From a virus: a DNA stretch of 40,262 bases. The stretch is taken from the IMG/VR virus record IMGVR_UViG_3300042507_003200, positions 1-40,262 of that record; one strand, given 5' to 3'. Under the pieces are notes generated by a model. The model saw only the letters and a program-made list of their open reading frames with translations, had not been told where the DNA came from and did not search any database. Shown piece by piece: positions 1 to 32,822 of this stretch. Both the position numbers and the translations under genes were made by a program. Each line of letters begins with the position of its first letter. Position 1 is the first letter of the stretch.

Positions 1-635
1 GAGTGGCGTTGGCATCCAATCCGCATGAAGCCCTCAGTGATAAGGACCGGCCAAATCAGATTGAGAATAGAGATGGGTGCTTTAGTGAGTGTTTCACCGG
101 CCAGGTTGGCACCGTCCAGGTTGGCACGGGCCAGGTTGGCACCGGCCAGGTTGGCACCGTCCAGGTAGGCACCGTCCAGGTTGGCACCGTCCAGGTTGGC
201 ACCGGCCAGGTTGGCACCGGCCAGGTTGGCACGGGCCAGGTAGGCACCGGCCAGGTTGGCACCGGCCAGGTTGGCACGGGCCAGGTTGGCACGGGCCAGG
301 TTGGCACCGGCCAGGTTGGCACCGGCCAGGTTGGCACGGGCCAGGTAGGCACCGGCCAGGTTGGCACCGGCCAGGTTGGCACGGGCCAGGTTGGCACGGG
401 CCAGGTTGGCACGGGCCAGGTAGGCACCGGCCAGGTTGGCACCGTCCAGGTAGGCACCGGCCAGGTAGGCACCGTCCAGGTTGGCACCGGCCAGGTTGGC
501 ACGGGCCAGGTAGGCACCGGCCAGGTTGGCACGGGCAGAGACCGCAGCCTCCAGGGTCAATTTCATTGAGTTGTCCTCAGCCTCATGCGAGAACAAAATA
601 CTGCCGCTGAACCGGCACTTGATTTCAATCTTCAT
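1..635 (-). CDS. Pentapeptide-repeat protein, N-terminal part (gene continues across the window ends)
   Basis: This minus-strand gene starts at ATG 635 behind an AGGAG ribosome site and runs off the left end; on the closed circle it continues to a TGA at 39996-39994, giving 258 residues. Residues 1 to about 33 form a short leader (MKIEIKCRFSGS...), then come 29 pentapeptide repeats of the type A(N/Y)L(A/D)(G/R). Such repeats fold as a right-handed beta-helix; some family members (Qnr, MfpA) mimic DNA and bind gyrase, but this cannot be assumed here. It is the first gene behind the promoter at 683-711. The other long open frames over this repeat are artefacts of the 15-base period. The target is unknown. 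Confidence 0.9.
   Translation of the reverse strand, partial: MKIEIKCRFSGSILFSHEAEDNSMKLTLEAAVSARANLAGAYLARANLAGANLDGAYLAGAYLDGANLAGAYLARANLARANLARANLAGANLAGAYLARANLAGANLAGANLARANLARANLAGANLAGAYLARANLAGANLAGANLDGANLDGAYLDGANLAGANLARANLDGANLAGETLTKAPISILNLIWPVLITEGFMRIGCQRH
101..535. repeat. 29 tandem 15-bp repeats encoding the pentapeptides
   Basis: Twenty-nine uninterrupted units of exactly 15 bp, CCAGGTTGGCACCGG with few variants (T/A at base 7, C/G at base 13, G/T at base 14), run in register from 101 to 535. Each encodes one pentapeptide on the minus strand. Units are nearly identical even at synonymous positions, which points to recent expansion by slippage or unequal recombination. The copy number may differ between genomes or be mis-assembled. 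Confidence 0.97.
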
Positions 636-657
636 TTGTAGCTCCTCAGCAAGGTTG

Positions 658-675
658 CGGTCAGTTGGTTGACCG
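658..675 (-). other. 5'-terminal mRNA stem-loop of the pentapeptide transcript
   Basis: On the minus strand CGGTCA (675-670) pairs with TGACCG (663-658) around a six-base loop. The stem begins about one base after the predicted transcription start (about 676). The same stem and the following AACCTTGCTGAGGA recur at 32770-32786, with a different loop but a kept stem. Confidence 0.65.
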
Positions 676-682
676 TGGTTAG

Positions 683-711
683 ATAATAAAGCGATCCAAT
701 GGAACTGTAAA
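683..711 (-). promoter_or_regulatory. Sigma70-type promoter P1 for the pentapeptide gene
   Basis: The minus strand reads TTTACA (711-706), a 17-base spacer, then TATTAT (688-683). It drives the gene starting at 635 and probably the genes past the join. Its -35 region TGTTTACA is shared with the promoters at 6749, 18270 and 32794. Confidence 0.8.
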
Positions 712-4168: not shown

Positions 4169-4375
4169 TTACGCAGCTTCCTTGATGCCGGCCGTGATGG
4201 CCTTCAGCACTTCCTTGGTGGCCTTGAGCGCAGCCTTGTCTTCGGGCAGCTCGGCTTCCTTGACCACGGCCAGGACACGCTTGGTCTCGGCCTTCACAGC
4301 AGCGGCAACTTGCTTTTCGACAGCGGCTTGCACACCTTCATCGGCCAGAGCGGCCTTGATTTCTTTCGCGTTCAT
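4169..4375 (-). CDS. Small helical protein, 68 aa
   Basis: The product (MNAKEIKAALADEGVQAAVE...) is an alanine, lysine and glutamate-rich helix former. ATG 4375 has AAGGAG at good distance; an ATG at 4390 is in frame but lies upstream of that site. It is isolated by a hairpin on each side (4434-4457 upstream, 4130-4150 downstream), which suggests separately tuned expression. No function is recognised. Confidence 0.75.
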   Translation of the reverse strand: MNAKEIKAALADEGVQAAVEKQVAAAVKAETKRVLAVVKEAELPEDKAALKATKEVLKAITAGIKEAA

Positions 4376-4433
4376 GTTGAACTCCTTCAAGTGGTTGAGT
4401 GAGCTTCGGGCTAATTCCCTCAGCAGGTTAGAT

Positions 4434-4457
4434 ACTACAGTCCTTGCGGACTATAGT
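4434..4457 (-). other. Strong stem-loop after the primase-helicase gene
   Basis: On the minus strand ACTATAGTCC pairs with GGACTGTAGT (10 pairs, one G-U) around the GNRA tetraloop GCAA. There is no T-run after it, so it is more likely an RNA-stabilising or processing hairpin than a terminator. Confidence 0.6.
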
Positions 4458-4469
4458 AAATATGTGGTT

Positions 4470-6572
4470 TCAATATTTTGCGCTCTTTTTGCCAGTTTGC
4501 TTCATACCCCAGTCCTCGAGGTGCTTGACTGCAGCTTGCGGAGCTGCCTGCGTCATCCAGAAGTCCAGGTTGCGGACCGCGTAGTAGCGACCCTGGGACC
4601 CATCGGTCAGGCGGATCGGCTTGCCGTTGCAAATCTGGTGGAGTCCAGCCCGGGCCAGCTCGCGGCCCAGGCCATTGGCTGTCGTGCCTGTCTTGCCAGA
4701 CGGATCGTAGAACTGCAGCAGCTCCTTCGAGGTGAACAGCTCCTTGGTGACCTGCACCTCCCCGACCCGCAGCACGTGGTCAGGCGTGGCCATGAGCTGA
4801 CGTACCCAGCCGGCCAGGTCAGACTGCACGTTCGCGATCATGCGCTCCTTGGCAGCAGTCTTGAAGGCCGGGGCAGCCGGGTTGAAGTCGCCGAGGTCGA
4901 GGTGCAGCAGGTAGTGGAACACGGCAGCCGAGCCGCCGGTGTCTAGCCACAGGTCGTAGTTCATGTAGAACTCCTCATCCATCGGACCTACCCGGACCTC
5001 GTGAATGAAGAAGCGGCGGTCATCATCTTCGAGGAAGAATGAATCAGGATGGTTGGCCGTGAAGAAATAGTTGATACAATCCGGCACGACGTATGTGGGC
5101 ACATATTTGCCATTGACCCGGAGCTCCCGCTGCGTGATGAGCTTCTTGAGGAAGTCAGCGTCGGCCCGCTTGTTCGACCCAGTCACGTCGTCGCCCATGA
5201 CGAACTGCTTGCCCTCAGCCCACTCATTGAAGCTGTTGTGCAGATCCATCTGGCTAATCTCGGTGAAGTTCTGCCCGTAGATCCGACCCAGCGTGTAGCC
5301 GATCAGCGACTTGCCCGTGCCGTGCCTGATGCCGTGTAGGACGGACGAGCTGAACAGCTTCGTGCCCGGATGCTGTAAGGGATAGGCACACCAGCGCAGA
5401 AACCACTGCATAGCCTCTGGCTCGGCATTCGTGAAGATGTGCTTGACTAGCTCCAAGAACGGCGACACGTCGTCCTCAGCCGGTTGGACGCCCCAGCCTG
5501 GCCAGATGTTGAACAGGGGACGAGGATCCTGAATGAAGCGCTCAGCGCCTGGCTGGTACGTGAGCTTCGTCACCTCCGTGCGCAGGGGCCACTTCAGCCA
5601 GGCAGCAGCAGCTGAGACCGCCTTGAAGGAGACTGAGCCGTCCTGCTTGAGGCTGCGCTCCTGGTAGTTGAGCGGCGCCTGCAGGTGCTCCTTGAATGCG
5701 CCAGGCGACGCCTTGAACCGAGTGCCTTGGTCCACGATCAGACCCGGGTCCTGCACGTAGACATACTTGTCATTGAGGCTCCAGAGCGGCTTGGTCAGCC
5801 CCAGGGGCTCGGCCTCAGCCAGCAGCTGGCGGAACATCTGGTTGCTCGATGGCCCAGCATGCACGAGGAAGTCGTCCAGCCCGACCTTCTCAAAGCCGTG
5901 CAGCTGCGGCAAGCTGATCAGGTGCACGAATGAGCCGCGCCGATGCAGCTCCTCAGCCAGCTCCCGCAACGCGGCGCAGACCATGGGGTTGGTTTTGTAG
6001 TCAGAGTCGAAGCAGATGTAGACGTTGCGCTTCAGCCACTGGATGGGATCGAGGCTTGGCAGCCAGGTGAGGCCCAGCTTGTGGCTGCGCCAGTTGTACA
6101 CGCCACCCAGCCCAATGGTGGGGAAGCCTTCCTTGCAGGCCTTGGCTGCTTTGAGCTCGCCTTCCGTGAGGATCAGCGGCTGGTTGACGTCGCCGACGAG
6201 GTCGGTCCAGTCTTGGTTGCCTGGGTAGTAGGCGACGGGGGCGGTGTTCGGCTCCTGCACATAGCGGACCTGCTTCTTCTCAGTCATTGCCGAGAAGTCG
6301 GTCGGGGTTTCCAGGTAGCGGAGGCGGTAGAAGGGCTTGGCGCCCGGCCAGTCGGGAAGCGGCTGACCATGATGATCGAGGTAATCGAGACGCAAGCTGC
6401 AGAGCTGCTTGAAGGCGGGGTGGAGACCTGCTGTGCCCTGGGCACCTAAGCACGTCATGCCGAGCTGCTTAGCGTCGTCGAGTGTGAGTCCGGATGTTTT
6501 GAGCTTGGCCTCGCCGAGAGCGAGTGCTTTATGGTCGGCGGTTGGCGCCGTCTTCTTGGTTCGTGTTGCCAA
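4470..6572 (-). CDS. Primase-helicase (TOPRIM-like domain plus SF3-like ATPase)
   Basis: This 700-residue protein probably primes and unwinds DNA at the replication fork. A TOPRIM-like (DUF3854-type) domain shows ILTEGE at 134-139 and CFDSD at 187-191, the acidic metal-binding pattern. The helicase half shows Walker A GIRHGTGKS at 414-422, Walker B FVMGDD near 457-462 and a sensor-like FFTANHPD near 503. The start is TTG 6572 (reads MATRTKK), eight bases after AAGGGG. It is preceded by a 170-base structured leader and the promoter at 6749-6777, so it is the first gene of the leftward arm. Confidence 0.88.
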   Translation of the reverse strand: MATRTKKTAPTADHKALALGEAKLKTSGLTLDDAKQLGMTCLGAQGTAGLHPAFKQLCSLRLDYLDHHGQPLPDWPGAKPFYRLRYLETPTDFSAMTEKKQVRYVQEPNTAPVAYYPGNQDWTDLVGDVNQPLILTEGELKAAKACKEGFPTIGLGGVYNWRSHKLGLTWLPSLDPIQWLKRNVYICFDSDYKTNPMVCAALRELAEELHRRGSFVHLISLPQLHGFEKVGLDDFLVHAGPSSNQMFRQLLAEAEPLGLTKPLWSLNDKYVYVQDPGLIVDQGTRFKASPGAFKEHLQAPLNYQERSLKQDGSVSFKAVSAAAAWLKWPLRTEVTKLTYQPGAERFIQDPRPLFNIWPGWGVQPAEDDVSPFLELVKHIFTNAEPEAMQWFLRWCAYPLQHPGTKLFSSSVLHGIRHGTGKSLIGYTLGRIYGQNFTEISQMDLHNSFNEWAEGKQFVMGDDVTGSNKRADADFLKKLITQRELRVNGKYVPTYVVPDCINYFFTANHPDSFFLEDDDRRFFIHEVRVGPMDEEFYMNYDLWLDTGGSAAVFHYLLHLDLGDFNPAAPAFKTAAKERMIANVQSDLAGWVRQLMATPDHVLRVGEVQVTKELFTSKELLQFYDPSGKTGTTANGLGRELARAGLHQICNGKPIRLTDGSQGRYYAVRNLDFWMTQAAPQAAVKHLEDWGMKQTGKKSAKY

Positions 6573-6743
6573 TTCGGGTTCCCCTTATACTGTCATCTTA
6601 CTTGGCCGCCCTCAGCAGTTGGCCTCTTCTATCTTGCGCTCAGCCGCAAGGAAAGGTGTCCGCCAAGCGCATCACTTGCTGAGGGCGATGACGTGGGACC
6701 CGGCGCTTAACGCGTGAAGGAGACACGACGAGCTTGGCGGACA
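6573..6743 (-). promoter_or_regulatory. Structured 5' leader of the primase-helicase mRNA with crossing stems
   Basis: Two long inverted repeats interleave: 12 bp (6657-6668 with 6732-6743) and 11 bp (6607-6617 with 6677-6687). Their order makes the stems cross, the layout of a pseudoknot. A further 6-bp hairpin lies at 6633-6650. The predicted transcript start (about 6742) falls on the outermost base of the first stem. No known riboswitch class is recognised. The leader may control translation from the weak TTG start. There is no convincing gene inside. Confidence 0.7.
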
Positions 6744-6748
6744 GGAGG

Positions 6749-6777
6749 ATAGTAGTTCGTCTGGACTGCCTTGTAAA
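6749..6777 (-). promoter_or_regulatory. Sigma70-type promoter P2 for primase-helicase
   Basis: The minus strand reads TTTACA (6777-6772), 17 bases, TACTAT (6754-6749). The upstream sequence ACCTGTTTACA is identical to that in P1 and P4. It faces away from the late promoter P5. Confidence 0.8.
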
Positions 6778-6840
6778 CAGGTGGTTAGGACAATCTGTAG
6801 CGGGATGTGGAGTAGCAGATTGGTGAAAAGCTGTTCAGAG

Positions 6841-7060
6841 TCAACAACTTAGCTCACTTTCTTGGCCGCTACGCACTTGGCTCTCCGCTACACGCTACAC
6901 CATTCTCTACTCTCCTTTCTCTCTATATCTATTCTTCTTCTTCTTCTTCTTTAAATAGAAAAGAGAGAATAATAAGTAGTATCTGTAGAACATTATATAA
7001 ATCAACAACTTAGATCGCTACACATTTGCGCTACACAGCTACGCCCGCGCCGTTGTGTAG
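6841..7060. other. Candidate replication origin: iteron-like repeats around an AT-rich tract
   Basis: TCAACAACTTAG occurs at 6841-6852 and 7002-7013. CGCTACAC occurs four times (6886-6893, 6893-6900, 7016-7023, 7029-7036), and an inverted partial copy GTGTAG lies at 7055-7060. Between them, 6901-7000 is AT-rich and strand-biased, with a TTC microsatellite at about 6932-6952. This lies between the two divergent transcription arms and beside the primase-helicase gene, which is typical of phage origins. There is no gene here. Confidence 0.55.
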
Positions 7061-18269: not shown

Positions 18270-18298
18270 TTTACAAGTCCGGAATAATGCTGTAGGAT
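18270..18298 (+). promoter_or_regulatory. Sigma70-type promoter P4 for ejection, tail and lysis genes
   Basis: TTTACA (18270-18275), a 17-base spacer, TAGGAT (18293-18298). The -35 region CCTGTTTACAAGTCC matches P3 (TGTTTACAAGTCC). It drives the genes from 18383 onward. Confidence 0.8.
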
Positions 18299-18305
18299 AC
18301 CAACA

Positions 18306-18325
18306 TCTGTGGTGCTATCCACAGA
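18306..18325 (+). other. 5'-terminal stem-loop of the P4 transcript
   Basis: TCTGTGG pairs with CCACAGA around a six-base loop. The stem starts within a base or two of the predicted transcription start (about 18305), as at the P1, P2 and P3 leaders. Confidence 0.65.
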
Positions 18326-18382
18326 CAGCTGAGCAACCACGAGCAGCCAGCAGCTCACAAGAACCCTTAACAGGAGCCCAAT

Positions 18383-32273: not shown

Positions 32274-32747
32274 TTAGGCGTCCTGGGGCAGGCGGCCGGT
32301 GCGCTTCATTTCGCAGCGATACCACGTGGGGTAGTGGCGCTTGGAGTTGTCCAGATTGAACTTCTCCTTGATCACGTCCCAGACCTCTTGGTTAGTCTTG
32401 CCGTCGAGGATCAGGGCACGTGCCGTGGCCGAGATGCCCTCGCGCTTCGGCGCAGCTGTCTTTGGTTCAGCAACTTTGAAACGACGACCATCTACTTTGG
32501 GGGTGTCCTTATCACCAGAAGTGAAGACAACGTTTTGCTTCTTGGCAGGTGCCTTGGCCGCAGGCTGCTTCAGCGACTGGAGATGGAGCTCAGCCATGGC
32601 GACCTTGCACGCGAAACGACCGTCAGTCATCTTCTCGATGAAGAAGTCGTAGTCGCGTGCTTGGATGCCCAGCTTGCGCAGGATGGTGGTGGCGGAATCG
32701 CGACGAGCAAGGATCTTGACGGCGTTGGCTTGGATGGTCTTGGACAT
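32274..32747 (-). CDS. Second H1-like protein, paralogue of the one at 31269-31919
   Basis: The 157-residue protein has an N-terminal helical domain (1-55), a basic linker (QPAAKAPAKKQN, VAEPKTAAPKREG) and the shared C-terminal domain at 104-154 (ALILDGKTNQEVWDVIKEKF, then NSKRHYPTWYRCEMKRTGRL). It is the first gene after promoter P3, so it is probably well expressed. It may bind or compact DNA. Confidence 0.75.
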   Translation of the reverse strand: MSKTIQANAVKILARRDSATTILRKLGIQARDYDFFIEKMTDGRFACKVAMAELHLQSLKQPAAKAPAKKQNVVFTSGDKDTPKVDGRRFKVAEPKTAAPKREGISATARALILDGKTNQEVWDVIKEKFNLDNSKRHYPTWYRCEMKRTGRLPQDA

Positions 32748-32769
32748 GGTGGTTTCCTCAGCAAGGTTC

Positions 32770-32786
32770 CGGTCGATGTGTGACCG
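32770..32786 (-). other. 5'-terminal stem-loop of the P3 transcript
   Basis: CGGTC (32786-32782) pairs with GACCG (32774-32770) around a seven-base loop, starting at the predicted +1 (about 32787). The following AACCTTGCTGAGGA is the same as in the P1 leader. Confidence 0.65.
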
Positions 32787-32793
32787 TGATTAG

Positions 32794-32822
32794 ATCTTAG
32801 CACGGCACAATGGACTTGTAAA
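32794..32822 (-). promoter_or_regulatory. Sigma70-type promoter P3 for the H1-like and nucleotide genes
   Basis: TTTACA (32822-32817), 17 bases, TAAGAT (32799-32794) on the minus strand. TGTTTACAAGTCC matches P4, and GTCCATTG in the spacer resembles P1. It re-initiates transcription after the SNF2 helicase gene. Confidence 0.8.

Follow-up and report, generated by a model that had tools for sequence, protein, structure and literature searches.

The ompA-type 5' stem-loop, which begins within about two bases of the 5' end, stabilises its mRNA, and 5' stems can protect mRNA from decay. In phage HK022, the put sites are RNA antitermination sites formed by structured RNA at the start of an early transcript. 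C4, a phage antisense RNA of P1/P7, is processed from a larger transcript, and its loops pair with an upstream sequence and with phage ribosome sites, as set out in passages of PMC5320573. VpdS (phage VP882) and PreS (lambda) are trans-acting phage small RNAs that depend on Hfq and act on host and phage RNAs, according to passages of PMC12197685.

The window studied here is an IMG/VR virus record of 40,262 bases. Its virion genes, which are P22-portal-like, lie on the plus strand and its replication genes on the minus strand; the early genes include a PolI-type polymerase, ligase, thymidylate synthase, helicase and primase. The closest named records, Stenotrophomonas phage AXL3, Pseudoxanthomonas phage PW916 and the environmental genome MW202621, share its polymerase and primase, and further relatives were gathered through polymerase, portal and primase. 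One pattern scan of bacterial genomes for primase relatives gave 51 matches with no true relative among them, and hence no host or prophage context.

On the minus strand of the window, promoter P2 opens a conserved folded RNA (6742-6604) upstream of primase, which we call the A-RNA. It would resemble C4 in its way of working, and C4, as described in those passages, is its closest functional relative. The A-RNA differs from C4 in three respects: its apparent 5' end is its own transcription start and not an RNase P site; its predicted targets lie in several operons, each with its own promoter and a common motif; and it stands upstream of primase rather than of an antirepressor. Like VpdS and PreS, it is a phage RNA that is predicted to act on messages. 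It differs from those two, as they are described, in that it is predicted to target leaders of its own phage and in its conservation, together with co-adapted targets, across many phages. Like HK022 put, it is a structured RNA with which an early transcript begins; unlike put, it is antisense to other leaders. Those leaders, like ompA, have a stem within about two bases of the (predicted) 5' end; unlike ompA, only part of them have one, and the stem leaders listed among the compact-stem clusters defined below also carry GCUGAGG downstream.

A conserved folded RNA upstream of primase

The features of this region are as follows.

6749-6777, minus strand: promoter P2, -35 TTTACA at 6777-6772, -10 TACTAT at 6754-6749, present in relatives too
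6658-6742, minus strand: A-RNA core with 5'-terminal closing stem, arms 6742-6732 and 6668-6658
6675-6685, minus strand: A-RNA seed CCCUCAGCAAG, antisense of the leader motif CUUGCUGAGG
6633-6650, minus strand: hairpin B1, loop GCUGAG, complement of the seed core; covarying helix 3
6604-6624, minus strand: hairpin B2, loop with UGCUGAGG, complement of the seed; covarying helix 4
4470-6572, minus strand: primase gene, TTG start with ribosome site AAGGGG, downstream of the A-RNA

Comparison of relatives shows the same fold. Most have, upstream of primase, a closing helix of 8-20 bp that spans 72-119 nt, with arms of unrelated sequence, and this helix encloses CCUCAGC, usually as CCUCAGCAAG, 9-19 nt ahead of the 3' arm. 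After the seed come a pyrimidine-rich stretch, then B1 with its GCUGAG loop and then B2 with UGCUGAGG. Before any model was fitted, the helix was seen in 68 of 84 primase-upstream regions and in none of the other 16, in a search centred on CYCAGC in which stems lacking CYCAGC could not turn up; six of the 68 (L160, L162, L175, L176, L177 and L182) we do not believe. The seed is accessible in the window, with an opening cost of 3.2 kcal/mol, and the 89-nt outer-stem region of P2 folds with a z score of -3.9.

In an 18-sequence MAFFT alignment, the seed CCUCAGCAA was invariant. Because the first MAFFT alignments misplaced the closing stem in divergent members, covariance model R1 was built from 8 close sequences and then widened. 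Its search input comprised 65 of the 80 primase loci (near-duplicates omitted) together with the window, L104, L105 and L106, and at E<=1 it returned 44 matches in these 69 sources, with seven weak ones (E 0.11-0.74). All 25 of 25 pairs in the R1 alignment had changes on both sides and 95.8% of 950 cells were paired, falling to 28-40% when partners were slid by 1-3 columns; this alignment was fitted to the structure, which favours the structure, and the stems were visible beforehand without a model. A second model, R2, built from the 44 R1 matches, recovered the window at 6596-6742 (E 7.9e-20) and also loci outside its training set (L156, 1.3e-8; L146, 5.8e-6; L154, 7.7e-6; L187, 1.9e-5; L170, 3.4e-5; L159, 0.0015; L144, 0.0026; L188, 0.019), all of these matches lying upstream of primase. 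In L114, L121, L124 and L180, the A-RNA is found about 500 nt further upstream of primase, with an apparent extra reading frame between.

Most phages have no clear intrinsic terminator after the A-RNA, so a free small RNA would need processing; alternatively, it could remain attached as the leader of primase. The end most like a terminator that we saw is a TTTTTT that follows the closing stem in one relative (L174, 3912-3920). By eye, a second short motif, UCUCC (window 6723-6719, minus strand), recurs inside the A-RNA of many relatives. By analogy with the two loops of C4, pairing of this motif with GGAG ribosome sites, for example the one of P6 described below, could give two-site binding.

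Membership of the A-RNA in the C4 family (Rfam RF01695) was rejected: neither the window nor AXL3 matched any Rfam covariance model at the gathering threshold, and a search of window 6500-6800 at E<=5 returned only an unrelated snoRNA at 11 bits. We found no description of the A-RNA among open-licence papers on AXL3, PW916, phage leaders and antisense regulons, and a term search of the AXL3 paper (PMC7504290) showed promoter, terminator and non-coding to be absent.

Leaders complementary to the A-RNA seed

A sequence complementary to the seed stands in three leaders of the window, one of which, P6, was absent from the initial annotation.

683-711, minus strand: promoter P1, -35 at 711-706, -10 at 688-683
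644-653, minus strand: P1 target element CUUGCUGAGG, holding the ribosome site of the ATG at 635; duplex -21.5 kcal/mol, 0/500 shuffles as good
3-635, minus strand: P1 gene, pentapeptide-repeat protein, ATG at 635, open to the window end
32794-32822, minus strand: promoter P3, -35 at 32822-32817, -10 at 32799-32794
32756-32765, minus strand: P3 target element CUUGCUGAGG, holding the ribosome site of the ATG at 32747; duplex -18.9 kcal/mol, 0/500 shuffles as good
32274-32747, minus strand: P3 gene, 157 aa, ATG at 32747
4373-4460, minus strand: P6, promoter TTTACT-17-TAGTAT, element CUGCUGAGGG at 4426-4417 at the transcript start

The pentapeptide-repeat protein under P1 is encoded by many near-identical 15/30-base repeats (window 103-536), and Pseudomonas phage Amjad_SA has repeats similar to these at 89% identity. 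The P6 reading frame (4375-4169, minus strand) has 68 residues and is rich in Ala, Lys and Glu. A named family was sought for the P3 gene and the P4 gene, and none was found.

Promoters of this kind recur in relatives with the consensus TGAAAATAGGTG-TTTACA-N17-TANNNT. Among unique strong promoters, 57/66 are followed by GCTGAG within 68 nt, compared with 4.5% of random 68-nt stretches. In an enlarged leader set GCTGAGG occurs in 77/86, but this figure is biased, 36/37 of the added stretches having been chosen for carrying the motif, and 57/66 is the less biased count. GCTGAG follows TTTACA promoters that have TGAAAATAGGTG nearly always, in the 57/66 just given, and those without it rarely, in 9/70. 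We also observed that TGAAAATAGGTG is conserved directly before the TTTACA (-35) of P1, P3 and relatives, where it may serve an activator or the alpha subunit as a binding site.

Two classes of leader could be told apart, and GCUGAG(G) usually serves as the Shine-Dalgarno sequence. In P1- and P3-like leaders the ribosome site lies within the motif, and GCUGAGG stands mostly 8-9 nt before the start codon. In the second class, of the P6 type, the motif lies where the transcript begins, and a separate AAGGAG site follows about 30 nt further on; in P6 itself that site (4387-4382) serves the ATG at 4375, and the duplex with the seed has -18.5 kcal/mol (0/500 shuffles as good). In AXL3, GCTGAG stands within the 30 bases ahead of the start in 6/65 annotated genes, and some of these six sites, being inside operons, may be accidental. 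GAGG alone could be retained for translation; GCU and the flanks could not.

The A-RNA sequence CCUCAGCAAG is the exact antisense of CUUGCUGAGG in P1 and P3, and for each of P1, P3 and P6 none of 500 dinucleotide shuffles paired as well with the window seed. As in C4, then, a loop is antisense to ribosome sites and complementary sites lie in the same transcript. Across 30 whole records, the leader pattern occurred in 12 and the A-RNA (E<=0.004) in the same 12; two further records gave weak A-RNA model matches (E 0.05-0.06) and had no leaders, and a reversed control pattern was found in 0/30. These 30 records were partly picked by A-RNA status, some leaders were known beforehand, and several of the A-RNAs (not those of L144, L146, L154, L159, L165 and L188) were in the R2 training set.

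Seed and targets also co-vary from phage to phage. We counted Watson-Crick matches in the four bases either side of the core, with near relatives merged or dropped and the P4 element left out; the permutations control only partly for phylogenetic relatedness. In 24 groups with 65 elements, leaders matched their own seed at 3.64 positions and permuted seeds at 2.95 (0/2000 as good); in 15 groups with distinct seeds and 48 elements, the values were 3.41 and 2.43 (0/5000). A control that scored identity in place of complementarity gave no signal (1713/2000 and 4916/5000). In MW202621, for example, the seed is GUUCCUCAGCAG and the leaders are GCUGAGGAAC; in AXL3, the seed CCUCAGCAAAGG faces the leader CCUUUGCUGAGG. 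For the window taken singly, the pairing of P1 and P3 with their own seed is no longer than with the seeds of other phages (10 versus 10.7 and 10.4). Together, the co-occurrence and the flank co-variation support a physical link of the A-RNA and the leaders.

Could the A-RNA instead be a purely cis-acting primase leader, whose seed loop kisses the GCUGAG loops of B1 or B2 and thereby switches primase, with GCUGAGG kept in the other leaders for another reason? A, B1 and B2 are indeed conserved jointly with covarying stems, the lack of a clear terminator fits, and B2 co-varies weakly with the seed beyond the core, its complementarity being slightly better with its own seed (20/2000 permutations as good). 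The stronger co-variation, however, is with the leaders and not with B1, which shows none beyond the core (1808/2000), and leaders and A-RNA occur in the same records. We consider this reading unlikely. In another proposal GCUGAG(G) is the site of an RNA-binding protein, a translational repressor or antiterminator, and the CCUCAGC of the A-RNA masks it. The motif is displayed in the B1 and B2 hairpin loops and near transcript starts, a display that nut-like or put-like sites resemble, but the flanks co-vary as complements, which protein binding would not need, and among the B loops is GCUGGG, a variant still able to pair with CUCAGC through G-U (the search admitted GCTGAG and GCTGGG only). A protein site is distinctly improbable beside pairing of the seed with the leaders.

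Stems at the transcript starts

The initial annotation had noted base-paired stems beginning within about two bases of the predicted starts of P1, P2, P3 and P4, and had proposed a genome-wide RNA stability device. Besides the P2 stem listed above, these are:

658-675, minus strand: P1 5' stem-loop CGGTCA-accaac-TGACCG, arms 675-670 and 663-658, at +2 from the predicted start
32770-32786, minus strand: P3 5' stem-loop CGGTC-acacatc-GACCG, arms 32786-32782 and 32774-32770, at +2 from the predicted start
18270-18334, plus strand: P4 late promoter and 5' stem-loop, AGCUGAGC, -35 at 18270-18275, -10 at 18293-18298, arms 18306-18312 and 18319-18325, stem at +2

All positions given for these stems, including the outer stem of P2, proved exact. 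With all starts predicted from sequence (+1 taken as the 7th base after the -10), the stem begins at +2 in P1, P3 and P4 and at +1 in P2, which on these starts falls within the roughly 2-4 nt of the 5' end seen in ompA-type stems. The further statement that P1 and P3 keep the stem while loop bases differ also held, and relatives extend it by pair swaps (for instance GGTCAA/TTGACC versus GAACAA/TTGTTC).

To score placement, leaders were counted as separate when differing at more than 12 of 40 bases, giving 51 clusters, and a compact stem was defined by at least 5 bp, at least 3 G-C pairs and a loop of 3-15, with the outermost start scored. Such a stem starts at nt 8 after the -10 in 16/51 clusters and at any other offset from 1 to 30 in at most 2 of 51. 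Against a fixed-position background of 2.6% the binomial p is 1.3e-13, and composition shuffles gave a mean of 0.47 and a maximum of 4; a looser stem criterion gave 16/37 against a background of 14.6%. The arms vary (CGGTC, CGAACAA, TAGAGAC, CTGCAC, CGCACA, CCGCAT, CCGTCGAGCA) and pairing and position are retained. Single-sequence folding is weak (z -2.2 for P1, -1.5 for P3, -1.7 for P4), and a fifth TTTACA promoter (7108, plus strand) has no stem, with a folding z of +0.88. Comparison of promoters thus establishes the family and its stem placement, and the 5'-terminal stem at the predicted transcript start is a real, selected feature of that family. Between the divergent P2 and 7108 promoters, window 6860-7060 holds a pyrimidine-rich and A+T-rich stretch and is a candidate replication origin.

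The interpretation attached to the stems fared less well. Their placement stands as real and selected, but the description was incomplete, as the P2 stem closes a separate, conserved RNA. The reading in which the point of the system is 5'-terminal stems that guard messages from pyrophosphate removal and RNase E accords with a start fixed at +2, with pairs retained through swaps, and with an A-RNA that likewise begins paired, at +1. Yet the device is not genome-wide: 35/51 promoter clusters lack a compact stem at nt 8, what is near universal is the motif and not the stem, and protection leaves the A-RNA and the seed co-variation unexplained. We regard it as very improbable as the point of the system; by analogy with known 5' stems, protection from decay would be a reasonable role for the stem itself. 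Taken together, the common sequence, the co-occurrence and the co-variation speak for antisense control of translation more than for a stability device. We also rejected, as scarcely credible, the idea that a phage repressor uses the inverted repeats at +2 as its DNA operators: although CGGTC-N-GACCG is common to P1 and P3, the arm sequences change from promoter to promoter and from phage to phage, with pairing and position unchanged.

P4 was rejected as an A-RNA target (184/500 shuffles as good) and is, by energy, apparently a conserved leader of a different class outside the A-RNA set. In its late leader (window 18299-18380, plus strand), ACGAGCAGCCAGCAGCTCA is identical in 9/9 aligned sequences (the window and 8 relatives) and is preceded by AGCTGAGC.

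Predicted antisense control of early operons

The initial observation is thus real and larger than had been described. A shared motif and its exact complement in a folded RNA suggest that the virus controls its own genes by RNA, and the members of the promoter family are most likely joined by an antisense RNA. In our judgement, the A-RNA made from P2 is probably a phage antisense RNA that pairs in trans with the P1, P3 and P6 leaders and similar messages and represses them. From the sequence we infer its transcription, timing, stability and accumulation, its pairing in the cell, and repression rather than activation as the outcome.

In the mechanism we propose, P2 would transcribe the A-RNA at the head of the primase transcript, beginning at its own closing stem; that the predicted start is the stem base argues for a primary 5' end. 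The A-RNA would display CCUCAGCAAG in its interior, near the 3' arm, and this seed, whether the RNA is free or still attached, would pair with the GCUGAGG of leaders that belong to other early operons, which in the window are P1, P3 and P6. For P1 and P3, the duplex would cover the Shine-Dalgarno GAGGA and block ribosome loading, which makes repression the simplest outcome, and both genes would be switched down once the A-RNA accumulates. Simple occlusion would not explain the P6 class, as its motif lies about 30 nt upstream of the ribosome site. The two GCUGAG hairpins between the A-RNA and primase might let the A-RNA act on its own transcript or be titrated by it, and the 5' hairpins of the targets, just upstream of the pairing site, may shield the 5' end or keep the site exposed.

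We are evenly divided on a broader reading, in which the A-RNA family is an early-expression timer: one antisense RNA of the primase operon, a genome-wide leader set, and a private pairing code in each phage around an invariant core. It would then be an undescribed, widespread phage RNA family in which RNA and targets co-evolve phage by phage. A handful of reporter mutants would put the predicted pairing code to a direct test, and with the covariance model the A-RNA could be annotated. If the antisense reading is true, cultured phages (AXL3, PW916) and many uncultured ones would carry a new structured RNA family, and several phage operons would be coordinated by an RNA and not by a repressor or a sigma-like protein.
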